A stretch of 64,000 nt of DNA from a virus: positions 19,729-83,728 of IMG/VR virus record IMGVR_UViG_3300042691_023046, one strand, 5' to 3'. Positions 9,718 to 49,458 of the stretch are shown here, piece after piece; the first letter of the stretch is position 1, and the number at the start of each line of letters is the position of its first letter. The notes under the pieces are model-generated. The model was not told the DNA's origin. It saw only the letters and a program-made list of their open reading frames with translations, and ran no database searches. Both the position numbers and the translations under genes were made by a program.

Positions 9718-9820
9718 AAAAGATTATAGGATTCGAACCTATGGACATAAATATATTGAATATCTAGTTTCATATTTATATCTATTCTAGTTTAACATTT
9801 AACCATTCTGCCAAATCTTT
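9718..9820 (-). tRNA. tRNA-like gene with an enlarged central region, identity unsure (possibly Leu, CAA)
   Basis: The minus strand shows a 7-bp acceptor stem (AAAGATT / AATCTTT), a Ser/Leu-style D-arm (GCAGAATGGTTAAATGT) and a perfect consensus T-arm (ATAGG, TTCGAAT, CCTAT). The 103-nt length is explained by an internal near-tandem duplication: AAACTAGAATAGATATAAAT is followed by a similar copy starting AAACTAGATATTCAATATAT. Using the second copy, AGATA TTCAATA TATTT gives an anticodon arm reading CAA, but position 37 would be U, which is unusual. An alternative 11-bp stem (GATATAAATAT with ATATTTATGTC) also forms. The discriminator is U and CCA is not encoded. Function as an aminoacylated tRNA is uncertain. 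Confidence 0.6.
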
Positions 9821-10665: not shown

Positions 10666-11442
10666 TTATTTATATGATTCTTTTAATTGTTTAATAATAT
10701 TTGAACCATAACTATTTTCTACTAATTTTATAAATTCTATTACTGTAAATTTATCTTTTTTAATATTAATATTATTATTTATACAAAAAGAATTTCTTCC
10801 CATATCACAACTTCCTGTTAATTTATAATGCCAATTATAATATTCAATAGCTTTATATTTTTTATTATTATTATTAAAAAATTGTTTAAATTTTATAATT
10901 CTATCTGTAATAGGTAATTTTATTAATAATTTATTTTGTAATTGTTCAACAGCTTCTTTAATTGTGTTTCCATGAGCAAATTCATTTTCTCCTTTAGCTA
11001 TATAACAAGAAATTAAAGATAAATCTTCTTGTACTATAAAACCTTTAGCTATATTATTTTTAACAGATATAATTATAGTTTGAATATTATCAATTAAATA
11101 TATTTTTTGACTATTCAATGAAATTAATCTATCTCCATCTCCATATCCATCTCCATCTCCATATCCATTTTCATATCCATTTTCATCTCCATATCCATTT
11201 TCATATCCATTTTCATTTCCATATCCATATCCATTTCCATATCCATCTCCATATCCATTTCCATATCCATTTCCATATCCATTTCCATTTCCATCTCCAT
11301 ATCCATTTCCATTTCCATCTCCATCTCCATATCCATTTCCATCTCCATCTCCATATCCATTTCCATCTCCATCTCCATATCCATTTTCATTTCTACTTAT
11401 ATATGTAAAATTTCTTTTAATAAAACATTCTATTTTTTCCAT
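10666..11442 (-). CDS. Phage protein with Gly-Asp/Asn-Gly-Tyr repeat tract and LTGSC-MGR-FC domain
   Basis: Residues 1-16 are a short leader, residues about 17-105 are a low-complexity tract built from Gly-Asp/Asn-Gly-Tyr units, and residues about 106-258 are a compact domain with KGFIVQEDLSLISCYIAKG, FAHGNTIKEAVEQLQ and LTGSCDMGRNSFC. The same domain signatures, often behind a Tyr-Gly-rich tract and beside the gene found here at 11430-11735, occur in many Bacteroidota phage genomes from memory; the function is not known. The repeat lies in coding frame, so its length sets the length of the protein. It overlaps the upstream gene by 13 nt. Confidence 0.75.
   Translation of the reverse strand: MEKIECFIKRNFTYISRNENGYGDGDGNGYGDGDGNGYGDGDGNGNGYGDGNGNGYGNGYGNGYGDGYGNGYGYGNENGYENGYGDENGYENGYGDGDGYGDGDRLISLNSQKIYLIDNIQTIIISVKNNIAKGFIVQEDLSLISCYIAKGENEFAHGNTIKEAVEQLQNKLLIKLPITDRIIKFKQFFNNNNKKYKAIEYYNWHYKLTGSCDMGRNSFCINNNINIKKDKFTVIEFIKLVENSYGSNIIKQLKESYK
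11131..11392 (-). repeat. In-frame hexanucleotide repeat tract (about 43 units)
   Basis: About 262 bp consist almost entirely of the 6-nt unit TCCATN, where the last base varies among A, C and T (minus-strand GGATAT, GGAGAT, GGAAAT read as Gly-Tyr, Gly-Asp, Gly-Asn after frame offset). Because the unit length is a multiple of three, gains or losses of units keep the frame open. Other frames read as Met-Glu/Met-Asp or His-Leu/His-Phe runs and are shadows. Such a tract should vary in length by slippage. Confidence 0.92.
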
Positions 11443-15766: not shown

Positions 15767-15988
15767 TTATTTACTTAGTTTAAGGGTATCTCCAATATTC
15801 CACTTATTAACGGAATCATATATTTCTAAATTTTGCGTACTAGCTCCATTTATAGCAAAGAAATGTATTTCATCAGTATTTCTACTTATTTTTTTTATGC
15901 TAGTTACAACCATTACTTCATTTCTATTGTCAATAGGAAAACAACTACTAGTTATTCCAATTAATAATATTATTATTAGCTTTTTCAT
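15767..15988 (-). CDS. Small lipoprotein
   Basis: Residues 1-16 are a lipoprotein signal (MKKLIIILLIGITSSC), with S-S-C at the cleavage site, giving a mature acylated protein of about 58 residues. The mature part is beta-like and has no motif. Phage lipoproteins of this size often act in superinfection exclusion; that is conjecture here. Confidence 0.6.
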   Translation of the reverse strand: MKKLIIILLIGITSSCFPIDNRNEVMVVTSIKKISRNTDEIHFFAINGASTQNLEIYDSVNKWNIGDTLKLSK

Positions 15989-16025
15989 TTTATTATTGTT
16001 TAATTGTTAATTTAATTGTTTAATG

Positions 16026-16355
16026 TTAATACAAATCTTCTGATGTTAAACCAATGATATTTGTAGCATAACCTTTATTTGGTCCAATTATTTGATTGGC
16101 TTCAAATGCTATTTTATATGCTTCTTGTCTATTTACAAATCTATTAGTATTTGTAATAAAACCTTGAATACATTTGTTCATTAATTTAACTATATCTTCT
16201 CTATTAATATCTTTCATCATTAATTTAAATGTATATATACAATTATGATGTCTTCTACCACCAATAACAAAACCTGATGTTATATTTATAGGTTGATGAA
16301 TATGTATTATATCATCATTATAATGATTAGCTGCACAAATTATATATTCTTTCAT
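16026..16355 (-). CDS. Phage protein of the GRRHHNC type
   Basis: The 109-residue protein shows a pattern I recall from uncharacterised Bacteroidota phage proteins: IICAANHYNDDIIHIHQP, then GFVIGGRRHHNCIYT, and a C-terminal RFVNRQEAYKIAFEANQI. The conserved His and Cys residues hint at metal binding. Function unknown. It is the gene next downstream of the second tRNA-like gene. Confidence 0.65.
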   Translation of the reverse strand: MKEYIICAANHYNDDIIHIHQPINITSGFVIGGRRHHNCIYTFKLMMKDINREDIVKLMNKCIQGFITNTNRFVNRQEAYKIAFEANQIIGPNKGYATNIIGLTSEDLY

Positions 16356-16379
16356 ATTTTTAATTAATTTAATTGTTTG

Positions 16380-16465
16380 TGGAGAAAACAGGATTGGAAC
16401 CTGTACCTAGTAACCAGTCTTAACTTGGTGGACATACCATTACGCCATTTATAACCCATTTCTCC
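16380..16465 (-). tRNA. tRNA-like gene, anticodon TAA (Leu) if functional, with extra bases before the D-arm
   Basis: The minus strand has a perfect 7-bp acceptor (GGAGAAA / TTTCTCC), discriminator A then CA, a perfect T-arm (ACAGG, TTCCAAT, CCTGT) and an anticodon arm ACCAA GTTAAGA CTGGT with anticodon TAA and one A-C mismatch at 31-39. The D region is about 10 nt too long: AAATGGGTTAT is followed by the similar AAATGGCGTAAT, a near-tandem duplication. A leucine tRNA should have a long variable arm, and this one has about 8 nt, so the identity is doubtful. UUA is a very common codon here. Confidence 0.6.
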
Positions 16466-16475
16466 ATTTAATATT

Positions 16476-17996
16476 ACAGGTAATTACTCCTGTTGCACAA
16501 TGTTGCTACATTCGACATGTATTTATATAAGTTGTATAAATACTATTTACTTCTTCAAGCTCTTGTAGTTCCAACTACGATAATATATTACTATATTAAA
16601 GGCATTACATAGGCTCTTATCCCTATTAAGATATTTATAATGCTGCCACCATATCTTTTACTTAAATTATTACTAAATGTTTTTACCATTACAATTCCTA
16701 TCAGTATATCTACCATCGTATATTGCACTTATTAGTATTTTCAAAGATATTTTATATTTCTCTACCATTTAACAGGTATGAATTATTAAACAATAATAAA
16801 TAAGATTTACTATTTCGGCATGATAAAACCATTACGTTATATCTTTCAAATGTCCTAATTATTATTTCAAATAATTACTCATTTATTATTGTTTTTTTTT
16901 TACTACTATTATGTTTTTTGGTAATCATTACATTAGGTCTTTCTCCTAATCTCCCCAAGTCAATTGTAGCTTCTGACTAATATCTTAAAAATGTAGGTTG
17001 TTAATTGCTATTTTTAGAAATTATATTTCACCATATTATTATGGACTAACAACACTACATTTTATATTTTAACATTAAGGTTTTATTTAATTAGACTTTA
17101 TACTATACCTTTTTATGTTAAAATATTTACCTTCTGCACTCAAACTATAAGAAGTAACTTATTATATTATTAAGTTTTACTTTCAAACTTATAGTTTGCT
17201 CATTCTTAGGAATTAATTAACTTAGAGGACATTGCAATCTGTTTAGTCTTAGGTTAATTAAGTAGTTTCACATCTTATACATTTATCTTTAATGTATGCT
17301 ATAAATAAGCTAAATAAGAAGTCTTTATATCTACATAAGTTATGGTGCATTAATATTAAATCCTTTTACACAAATTGTAATACTTACTTGATATTACTTT
17401 TATTGTAATTCAATAGCTCATGCTGCCAGACTTATAGAGATATTACAATTGTGTATTAGGAATATTTTATTTAAATTTAATCTTACAGTAGTTTGTACAC
17501 AGCTATAGTAAGCATAATACCTAGTTCTTGAATCTAAGTTTAACTTTTTGTTTTTGTTTACTGTTAAATGATGTACACCATTTACTTAATCCACAAGATA
17601 TATTGACTAGTTTTTATCTTGGTTTCTCATAATCTTACTAACATATGATTAAGTTTATAATGTTAGCAGCAAGATTTTAAATTTTTTTTATTCATAAGTT
17701 GCTTCTGTTTCTATACAACAGATAAGATTTAATAAAAAACAGTATGATATTACTAAGTTGTGCTATATCATCAAGTAAGTTTTATTTATACTTAGATTAC
17801 GTTATACTCCTGTTTTTTGAGAATTAAACTCTACAAAGTTGCACTTTGTCATGCGGTATTATTTCAACAGCAAGTCCTGCGAATTGGACAGAGTTTAATA
17901 TTTTAAATTAACTGTACAAATTGTAATAGCTGTACAGTAATTCGGGTGCATTAATTTCCCTATCATAATCCGTCACTATTACAACTGTACAGTTAA
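16476..17996 (-). ncRNA. Large ornate structured non-coding RNA region (about 1.5 kb)
   Basis: No convincing reading frame exists in this stretch, yet it is packed with strong paired elements. Examples: 16519-16527/16535-16543 (9 bp); 16602-16607/16638-16643 with a crossing helix AAGATAT/ATATCTT (possible pseudoknot); 16791-16801/16881-16891 (11 bp); 16991-17003/17047-17060 (13 bp) enclosing GAAAT/ATTTC and CCATA/TATGG hairpins; 17064-17075/17115-17126 (12 bp); 17141-17151/17188-17198 (11 bp); 17277-17283/17291-17297; 17368-17382/17441-17454 (14 bp); 17823-17832/17890-17899 (10 bp) enclosing two hairpins; 17908-17929/17976-17996 (20 bp). Purine-rich loops and neighbours favour the minus strand, with the tRNA-like gene just downstream. 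It recalls ROOL/GOLLD-type phage RNAs, but I could not match a consensus. Confidence 0.7.
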
Positions 17997-18009
17997 TATA
18001 ATTAATGTT

Positions 18010-18429
18010 TTAACTAGTTCTAAGTATTTTATTAAATTGTTCAATTGATATAGTTTTTTCCCAATCAATTCCTCCATGTTTAATAAATACTTCTTCTAAT
18101 ACTGTAATTGGTATATTACCAACTGTTCCTGTAGTATCATTTGGATTATCTCCATATTCAGACATTAATGGTTCATGTTCAGATGTAAATCCAAATTCTA
18201 CTGATTCATAAGTATGTCCTAATGTTCTATATCCATTTTCTGTACCACAATAATTACCATTATGTATTTGTAATGATACATTAAATCCATCTTTAGCATA
18301 TATTCTAGGACAATAAAAGTATTGATTATCATAGGACATTTGTTTTCCCATAAAATCTTTTTTACCTGATGTTATTGATGGTTGAAAAATAGACATTATT
18401 ATTAGTCTAAAAAATAGTGTTAAATTCAT
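18010..18429 (-). CDS. Unknown protein
   Basis: The open frame is 139 residues; the true start may be the Met at residue 27 or 31 (MGKQMSYDNQYFYCPRIY), since the first part is hydrophobic and unlike the rest. The core reads as a beta-rich fold (FNVSLQIHNGNYCGTENGYR) followed by a helical C-terminus (LEEVFIKHGGIDWEKTISIE). No family named. It is the last protein gene before the structured RNA region. Confidence 0.6.
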   Translation of the reverse strand: MNLTLFFRLIIMSIFQPSITSGKKDFMGKQMSYDNQYFYCPRIYAKDGFNVSLQIHNGNYCGTENGYRTLGHTYESVEFGFTSEHEPLMSEYGDNPNDTTGTVGNIPITVLEEVFIKHGGIDWEKTISIEQFNKILRTS

Positions 18430-18708: not shown

Positions 18709-19196
18709 AATTGTATTTATTAGTGTTGTTATTTATGATTAATTGTTTAATTTATTGTTTACAAATGTGAAGTTAAATGATGTGAATATCATGAAGATAT
18801 GTGAATGTGTTATAATAAATGTGCAATTTTTATTTAGTGTAATGAGAGTGTAGATTAATATTGTTGGGTTGTTAACATTTAACCAACCTCCATAACATTT
18901 AACTATCACATCAAATAATTATTTATCATATAACTATTATATAATAGCTATACATTTCCATCACATACCTGTTAATTTAATCAACATACATAATTACAAT
19001 TTAAGCTCCTTAAACTAATATTCTCCTACACTTTTAAATTATTATTATGTTATTAACTACACTTCATTCACACTAAATATTATATGTTTACAATTGTAAA
19101 GTTATATAATTTATAACTTGTTGTTAATCACCCATTTCTCTCTTTAGAAGCAAATAGATATACAATTATAGATACACTATTAATACACACAATAAA
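18709..19196. other. Origin-like non-coding segment with strand-composition flip
   Basis: No gene is seen in these 488 bp. From 18721 to about 18880 the plus strand is G/T-rich with few C; from about 18881 to 19196 it is C/A-rich with few G. TTTAGTGTAATGAGAGTGTA near 18833 is matched in inverted orientation by TAACTACACTTCATTCACAC near 19053. Short TATGTGAATG / GATGTGAATATC / GATGTGATAG-like elements recur on both strands, and perfect 14-bp palindromes (CTATTATATAATAG, TTTACAATTGTAAA) are present. Skew flip, iteron-like repeats and AT richness next to the divergent switch fit a replication origin, but this is inference. Confidence 0.4.
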
Positions 19197-19198
19197 AT

Positions 19199-19228
19199 AA
19201 GGAGAGTTTAACACTCCCCTTATTATTA
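19199..19228 (-). terminator. Intrinsic terminator after the 79-residue gene
   Basis: On the minus strand AATAAGGGGAGT pairs with ACTCTCCTTATT (12 pairs, one G-U) around a short loop, followed by TTTATT. It overlaps the gene's stop codon. The G-U pair exists only on the minus strand, fixing the orientation. Confidence 0.8.
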
Positions 19229-19465: not shown

Positions 19466-19892
19466 GGTACGGTGTATTTAATTGTTGTAGTTTAGTAAGG
19501 GTCGGGTTGTTGATGTGGTAGCCCCTTCTCTACATTTAAAACAAATTTTCAATTTTTACAAAATTTTAAAAAATAATTTTTTTATCAACATAGGGGTCTA
19601 TCATTACTTTTTTCTAATTTTATTAATTTCTTAATTTTTAAATTTTATAAAAAAAATTTTTATTGACCCTACTCATTATCACACTATATAGGTGTAAATT
19701 TATTTTCAATTTGGATTCCTTTAGAAGCCTATTCATAGGCAGTTAAAATACCCATGTTCACAGGAAACACTATATAAGTTATTGATTGTTAGTTGTTAAA
19801 GAAGTTAAATGATTGTATAATAATAAAATCTATAATTTGACAGTTTATTCAATTGATATTCAATTACTTAAAACATATTTTTATAAACAGTA
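19466..19892. promoter_or_regulatory. Divergent intergenic region between minus and plus blocks
   Basis: This gap holds no supported gene. It contains long A/T runs (19570-19670), a GGGTC...GACCC inverted pair (about 19500 and 19675), an ATAGGGGTC block, and a compact hairpin GCCTAT TC ATAGGC near 19727-19740. It separates the two transcription directions and should carry both outward promoters; only the plus-strand one at 19893-19922 could be matched to a consensus. Confidence 0.55.
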
Positions 19893-47772: not shown

Positions 47773-49458
47773 ATGGAATATTTAAAAAGCATTTATAATT
47801 ATAAAAATTTATTACCTAAATATGGTAATGGTATTTCATTACAAGGAAGTAATACATTTAATTCATCTATGAATGATAAATCATGGATGAAATCTTTAGC
47901 AAACAAAAATATTGCTAAATCTGGTGTAGGTTTTGGTAATATGGATGCAATAACAGGTGTATCTAATATAGTTATGCCTTTTATAGAAAATGCTACTACT
48001 ACAAGTCAAACTGACATGTACGGTAATAAATTTGAAAAAAAAGATGTAGGAGTAGGAGCATTAAGTGGAGTAGCTAGTGGAGCAGGTTTAGGTACAATGA
48101 TAGCACCAGGAATTGGTACAGCTATAGGAGCAGGATTAGGAGCTATTTGGGGAGGAGCTACTACTGGTATGGAAAATGACGAAAATTTAAAAGCTTTAGC
48201 AGAAAGTAATAAAAAATATTCAAATAGTATGTTTGATAATGCTAAACAAACTCAAAAAAATTTAGTAGCACAAGGTTTTAATTCACAAGGTACAACAGGA
48301 ATGATGTATAAAAAAGGTGGTAATGTTATAAAACCACAGTATGAAGTAGAACAAGGTGAAGTAATACAAGGTAATAATGTTGAATTGGAAGCAGGACATC
48401 AATTAGCTTCTGATATACATAAAGTTGATGGTAAAAAACATGAACAAGGAGGAGTTAATGGTAAAGGTGGAGAAATAGTAAATTCTGATAGTATAGTTAT
48501 TGGTGATGATTTTGCTAATTCTTTAAAACAATATAAATATAATTTTAAACCTACAGATACAGTTGCACAAGTAGCTGAAAAACTAGGTAAAGATAAAGGA
48601 AAGTATGAAAAAAACTTAAATTCTAAAGATGCTTTAACTGTTAAAACAGCTAATGTAATGATTAAAAGAATAGATGAATTAAGTAATGCTAATTTTGAAA
48701 ATCAAGAAAATATTAAAAGAATACAAGAAGAAGGAGAAAATATGCAAGCTTATAAAAAAGGTGGTAATTTACCAATGTATAAAAAAGGTGTTGATATACC
48801 TATAGAACAATTATTAAATACAGGAGTAACAGCAGCTAATTATTTAAATGCTGATAATCAAGGTACTAATATTAAAAGACAAACAGCTACACCTAATTAT
48901 ATAAAAGCACCTAATAATTTAAGTTTTGAAAAACAAAATATTAATAATGAAATAGCTAATACTAAAACTGATATGATTAGAAAATCTGGTAATATCAATG
49001 AAACAAGTGCTAGATTAGCTAATTTAACAGCAGCAGGTTTAGAAGCTACTAATAAAGCAGTAGTTAATCAAAATAATTTAGATTTACAAACTAATAATAT
49101 GAATATTGGTATTGGTAATGATTATAAAAATAGAGTAGCTGAAAATGCTAATGCTGATGCTATTGATATGTTACAAGGTAAAAATGCTATTTTAACTAAT
49201 AAACAAAATGCTATAAATACAGGTTTAGCAGGTTTTATACATAATAGAACTACACAAGAAGCTTATGATATTGAAAAGCAAAAATTAGCTATAGCTAAAA
49301 TGGATGGTGGTAGAGGTACAGCAGATAGAAGTACAGCAGCTATAAGAAAAATGGTAGAAAATGGTAGTTTATCTCCTTCTGATTTTGAAAGAATGACAGG
49401 AGAAAAATATACGGTTAAAAAAGGTGGTTATATAAAATCAGGAAAAATGTATTGTTAA
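47773..49458 (+). CDS. Internal virion protein with glycine-zipper hydrophobic segment
   Basis: The 561 residues contain a Gly/Ala-rich membrane-like segment (GALSGVASGAGLGTMIAPGI, then GTAIGAGLGAIWGG, about residues 95-130), and the recurring MYKKGG motif (three times), VEQGEVIQGN and VDGKKHEQGGVNGKGGEIVN. The same set occurs in proteins of crAss-like phages at this place; glycine-zipper segments often insert into host membranes during DNA entry. It is closed by a terminator. Probably packaged cargo. Confidence 0.7.
   Translation: MEYLKSIYNYKNLLPKYGNGISLQGSNTFNSSMNDKSWMKSLANKNIAKSGVGFGNMDAITGVSNIVMPFIENATTTSQTDMYGNKFEKKDVGVGALSGVASGAGLGTMIAPGIGTAIGAGLGAIWGGATTGMENDENLKALAESNKKYSNSMFDNAKQTQKNLVAQGFNSQGTTGMMYKKGGNVIKPQYEVEQGEVIQGNNVELEAGHQLASDIHKVDGKKHEQGGVNGKGGEIVNSDSIVIGDDFANSLKQYKYNFKPTDTVAQVAEKLGKDKGKYEKNLNSKDALTVKTANVMIKRIDELSNANFENQENIKRIQEEGENMQAYKKGGNLPMYKKGVDIPIEQLLNTGVTAANYLNADNQGTNIKRQTATPNYIKAPNNLSFEKQNINNEIANTKTDMIRKSGNINETSARLANLTAAGLEATNKAVVNQNNLDLQTNNMNIGIGNDYKNRVAENANADAIDMLQGKNAILTNKQNAINTGLAGFIHNRTTQEAYDIEKQKLAIAKMDGGRGTADRSTAAIRKMVENGSLSPSDFERMTGEKYTVKKGGYIKSGKMYC

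Follow-up and report, generated by a model that had tools for sequence, protein, structure and literature searches.

What kind of molecule, if any, does the longest gap between open reading frames (ORFs) in a divergent crAss-like phage encode? The window, by which we mean the whole stretch of 64,000 nt analysed (positions 19,729 to 83,728 of IMG/VR record IMGVR_UViG_3300042691_023046), belongs to an 83.7-kb virus contig whose capsid protein matches Pfam Crass_capsid (E = 5.5e-56) and whose terminase matches PHROG 6681, both being 32–36% identical to the closest relatives found. The gap extends from 16356 to 18009 (1654 nt). An earlier note on this DNA had described about 1.5 kb as gene-free and would have counted a conserved protein frame across it against an RNA; the description is borne out, as there is no ATG-initiated ORF of at least 45 amino acids (aa) in the 1654 nt, and no protein frame crosses the region, the longest stop-free run in 16465–18005 being 58 codons compared with 66 (5–95%: 48–92) in shuffled sequence. 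If TAG and TGA are taken as sense codons, only a few frames become open, of at most 98 aa and mostly containing recoded stops. A recoded or short protein gene was thus rejected, since the open frames are no longer than in shuffles and recoding reveals none.

The genes on either side are separate, complete and on the minus strand. Upstream lies a 139-aa ORF (18010–18429) of no named family, which has no match in Pfam or PHROG and homologues at 47–58% in other IMG/VR contigs; downstream is a 109-aa ORF (16026–16355) assigned to phrog_839, a label that carries no function. The RNA proposed below would run in the same direction as both, and, as neither is part of an interrupted host gene, an intron was rejected. 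Elsewhere on the contig, the second-largest ORF-free gap (18709–19225, 517 nt) contains several short palindromes and has a minus-strand folding z of -2.2, and a 258-aa ORF at 10666–11442 (minus strand) carries a long run of GYGDGDGNGYG-type repeats.

Pairing beyond chance and the order of domains

When helices are counted as perfect Watson-Crick helices with arms within 150 nt, the region contains 13 of at least 9 bp, whereas 30 dinucleotide shuffles give 3.07 ± 2.08 (maximum 10) and 37 windows taken elsewhere in the genome 0–10; four reach at least 11 bp, compared with 0.27 (maximum 1) in the shuffles. The earlier note's observation of ten or more long, tiled helices is borne out, and its further claim that pairing exceeds what AT-rich DNA yields by chance is confirmed by folding against shuffles: at a span of 200, the minus strand has z = -5.0 and the plus strand -8.7 (best of 14 control windows, -3.3 and -3.1), and unrestricted folding gives -4.2 and -6.5. 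Windows of 150 nt are merely mildly unusual, D1 (below) excepted. It is from these unremarkable windows, and from the ease with which AT-rich DNA pairs, that one might argue for chance structure in spacer DNA or for a decayed gene; this is extremely unlikely, with helix counts and energies beyond the shuffles and all control windows and with ends that are 94–96% conserved across diverged phages, and it is largely refuted for D1, D2, D7 and the tRNA-like structure (TLS), though not for parts of D8–D9.

Pair probabilities resolve the region into a row of well-defined domains, given here on the minus strand. D1 (17903–18005), a conserved 5' hairpin, consists of 12 bp, a G.U pair with a bulged U, 9 bp and further inner pairs (z = -6.1; helix probability 0.92; sequence pattern TGTAATAGTGACGGATTATGATAGGG), and is followed by D2 (17823–17899), a 10-bp stem around two hairpins (z = -4.1). 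D3–D6 (17064–17819), a multibranched, lineage-specific expansion with z = -3.1 on the minus and -4.1 on the plus strand, divides by pair probabilities into subdomains at 17802–17584, 17581–17342, 17321–17131 and 17126–17064. D7 (16988–17063) is an 18-bp bulged helix, with arms AAATGTAGTGTT and CCTACATTTT, around two short hairpins (z = -4.6). A second lineage-specific expansion, D8–D9 (16466–16986; z = -2.4 minus, -3.2 plus), includes a 17-bp helix (16894–16878/16804–16788; probability 0.98) and, in D9, the last domain (16504–16727), outer stems that are weak (p about 0.19–0.5); the pseudoknot proposed earlier at 16602–16657 stays putative, with rival helices predicted there, one at p = 0.55. 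The three domains in which an outer helix had been seen to enclose two hairpins are recovered at 17899–17823, 17063–16988 and 16894–16788, with outer-helix probabilities of 0.92–0.98. On the minus strand D1, D2 and D7 are the strongest blocks, the expansion blocks are weaker yet below chance, and the folding-energy z of the tRNA-like block at the 3' end is neutral.

Overall, z is stronger for the plus strand than for the minus strand, and wobble pairs within the shared helices (6 vs 7) favour neither. Strong folding of both strands, greater by z on the plus, together with many AT-rich perfect palindromes and no promoter-like excess, is what might be expected of an element acting as double- or single-stranded DNA, such as a replication origin or a packaging or protein-binding region. 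We nevertheless regard such an element as quite unlikely: direct repeats and iterons do not exceed chance in the element, its helices are bulged and its junctions multibranched, a tRNA-like cloverleaf stands at one end, and D1 folds more stably, by 7 kcal/mol, on the minus, gene-sense strand than on the plus. A promoter and terminator scan of the region gave no signal above chance. Internal duplication, suggested by repeats such as GGTGCATTAAT and ACAAATTGTAATA, was rejected as the self-alignment score is below that of shuffled controls, and enrichment of k-mers (GTAATG and others) is not significant once the number of words is allowed for.

A compact relative in a second phage

An exact 21-mer from the D1 helix matched a single viral contig, L170 (IMGVR_UViG_3300048672_000387, genome G067), where the element is compacted into about 0.4 kb and its parts follow in the order D1-D2-D7-TLS, as in the window. 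D1 is 96% identical over 132 nt (L170:4793–4924) and the TLS 94% identical over 109 nt (L170:5098–5206), and these are the two longest nearly identical DNA stretches between genomes whose proteins share 24–48% aa identity and whose coding DNA reaches 71–78%; the only further near-identical DNA is 36 nt at 49117–49152 and 39 nt at 15983–16021. The latter, an A/T-rich leader (CAATTAAATTAACAATTAAACAATAATA...; L170:5192–5230, 95% identical), precedes a start codon, and similar stretches precede other ORFs, which may reflect a shared translation or promoter signal. The D2 stem is kept in L170 with a smaller interior and one compensatory change, from C-G to U-A. Both D7 arms are also present, in order and complementary, directly after D2; such a complementary pair did not arise once when the L170 interior was shuffled 4000 times. 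Missing from L170 is about 1.2 kb of the middle, namely D3–D6 and most of D8–D9. The check for covariation that the earlier note had proposed among homologues had just two sequences to work with, and its yield was the compensated pair in D2; because two sequences give this one covarying base pair, the case for the middle domains is an energetic one. Without D1 the L170 interior is no more stable than chance (z = -0.7).

The ORFs beside the element differ between the two phages, while the orientation of the element relative to its neighbours is the same, co-directional in both. The near-identity of D1 and the TLS may be due to recent exchange instead of constraint. In another reading, a tRNA or tRNA-like gene with a conserved leader hairpin sits at a spot prone to recombination; function would then be confined to D1 and the TLS, which serve as homology for exchange, and the 1.2 kb between them would be a passenger. 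That strong conservation is limited to the ends, that the middle is wholly different in length and that the flanking genes differ between the phages would all fit; the middle itself, however, exceeds chance in structure (z = -3.1/-4.1 and -2.4/-3.2), D7, which lies inside it, is conserved in L170, and the absence of a gene is unlike ordinary cargo, so that we consider the passenger reading unlikely.

The TLS (16380–16464, minus strand; sequence pattern GGCGTAATGGTTATGTCAACC) has a 7-bp acceptor, a 12-nt linker, a D-arm, an anticodon-like arm (UAA) and a T-arm. What stands of the tRNA-like gene proposed for this end is the cloverleaf, whose acceptor, D, anticodon and T arms appear in the minimum free energy folds of both homologues, with D-loop and T-loop motifs and the 12-nt linker after the acceptor common to both phages. 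What does not stand is its recognition as a tRNA: it scores 21.0 bits in the window and 24.2 bits in L170 against the Rfam tRNA model (RF00005), for which the gathering cut-off is 29, and ARAGORN makes no tRNA call at 16380–16464. A further unusual tRNA lies at 9718–9820 of the window, on the minus strand. It scores 31.2 bits, is 103 nt long owing to some 30 additional bases in the anticodon/variable region, and is followed by structured flanks and a hairpin resembling a terminator. In L170, another tRNA-like, strongly paired non-coding stretch (L170:4440–4570, minus) lies just upstream of the short element, on the opposite strand.

Searches for other relatives returned little. The element had no significant match among phages and plasmids, nor did a 19-base D1 pattern among genome contigs, two other exact patterns among viral contigs, or the L170 element among 56 records; a covariance model of D1–D2 (R1) matched this contig alone among 47 related viral records. 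Following the neighbouring proteins into other contigs (L002–L005, L130, L133–L166) led to short gaps without convincing similarity to the element; an apparent gap in L004 proved to be a coding gene and the end gap of L003 to contain a tmRNA. DNA matches of 19–28 nt in three genomes (G055, G052, G053) were taken as chance, the one inspected lying inside a coding ORF. The tmRNA of L003 (5700–6101; a 121-kb virus contig, G002) scores 90.8 bits with Rfam and encodes the tag GTSNVDRVAEGEAILASIFGEVAIAA. A 744-nt ORF-free gap in another contig (L094:2916–3659, G001) folds well (z = -3.7/-5.0), is unrelated to the element and adjoins an ORF with similarity to an endonuclease VII-type protein.

A candidate structured RNA and how it might be made

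We think it somewhat probable that the minus strand of the locus encodes a structured phage non-coding RNA whose ends are invariant and whose small D2/D7 core is, in this phage, supplemented by about 1.2 kb of inserted domains. The minus strand is indicated by the multibranched architecture, the TLS on that strand, the stability of D1 and the co-directional neighbours. Our confidence goes no further because there are two sequences, the ends may have been exchanged, z is stronger on the plus strand, the middle of the L170 form is unremarkable, and transcription is a prediction. More tentatively, the two forms may represent a new class of phage RNA in which whole structured domains are gained or lost (0.3 to 1.5 kb) between an invariant 5' hairpin and a 3' tRNA-like end, and it is with similar caution that we suggest such an RNA could be a capped scaffold with interchangeable middle domains.

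Under the structured-RNA reading, the element would most likely be transcribed together with the neighbouring genes. The long duplex of D1 might then provide one processing or protection end, through RNase III-type cleavage, and the TLS the other, through RNase P/Z. By analogy with GOLLD and ROOL, the released RNA could be a structural, possibly multimeric RNA or a ribosome-associated decoy during infection, and a cage or scaffold function would likewise be borrowed from that analogy.

To our knowledge, very large structured RNAs of phages fall into few described classes, and it is not yet settled what ROOL and GOLLD do. A further class in crAss-like phages, if it is one, would come with a minimal natural form of about 0.4 kb and an expanded one of about 1.6 kb, the comparison of which would show the essential parts and open expression, processing and assembly to direct tests. 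In any case, non-coding DNA that is 94–96% identical between phages whose proteins are 24–48% identical needs explaining, whether by very strong constraint or by recent transfer.

Comparison with known RNA families

Both loci (window 16250–18100 and L170:4400–5250) were compared with Rfam by cmscan, up to E = 10. GOLLD is a large phage non-coding RNA found near tRNAs, which can lie inside it, and has one well conserved and one variable part; ROOL, likewise large and from phages, has multi-branch domains and frequently lies close to tRNA islands; and both form cages (Nature 2025, PMC12286853). The earlier note had allowed for either a distant member of these families or a new class. ROOL and GOLLD are reported to occur in phages, beside tRNAs, and to have large structures of many domains (PMC12286853); sharing these traits would suit an RNA of either family that had drifted beyond the models; however, neither covariance model, nor that of any other large-RNA family, matches the window or L170 at E <= 10, and the L170 form, at about 0.4 kb, is below the usual sizes of both. 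Distant membership is thus not borne out and is very unlikely, while the suggestion of a new class stands, and the short, independent homologue in L170 adds to its support.

Like GOLLD, the element lies in a phage, here a crAss-like one, and has a tRNA-like structure at 16380–16464. It differs in lacking a match to the GOLLD model, which covers a conserved 3' region, in being conserved at both ends and variable in the middle, and in length (about 1.5 kb, with a short form of about 0.4 kb, compared with roughly 0.8 kb). With ROOL it shares large size, multi-branch domains, a phage genome and a tRNA-like neighbour, but there is no model match, the length is different and the tRNA-like domain here belongs to the conserved unit. 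A member of ROOL would further be expected to form a homo-oligomeric RNA cage, and one of GOLLD to increase in expression as lysis approaches. A tmRNA would also join a tRNA-like domain to other RNA domains, and the short form is tmRNA-sized; in the element, however, the TLS acceptor closes locally within 85 nt, and neither Rfam nor ARAGORN finds a tmRNA in the window or L170, ARAGORN being able to call the one in L003. Group I and group II introns are without an Rfam match up to E = 10 in either locus.

The acceptor and D-arm of an ordinary tRNA are normally joined by a linker of 2 nt. The TLS resembles an ordinary phage tRNA in its 7-bp acceptor, its 5-bp T-arm with a TTC-AAT loop and its D-arm with a TAATGGTA loop, and departs from it in the 12-nt linker, a long variable loop and a sub-threshold score; unlike bacterial leucine tRNAs, whose anticodon UAA it shares, it does not have their long variable arm. 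By the tests applied, the element is not a ROOL, GOLLD, tmRNA, intron or standard tRNA, and it is therefore described as what it looks like: a large structured RNA of phages, new in kind, whose ends are conserved and whose middle varies, similar to GOLLD and ROOL in context while standing outside both families.
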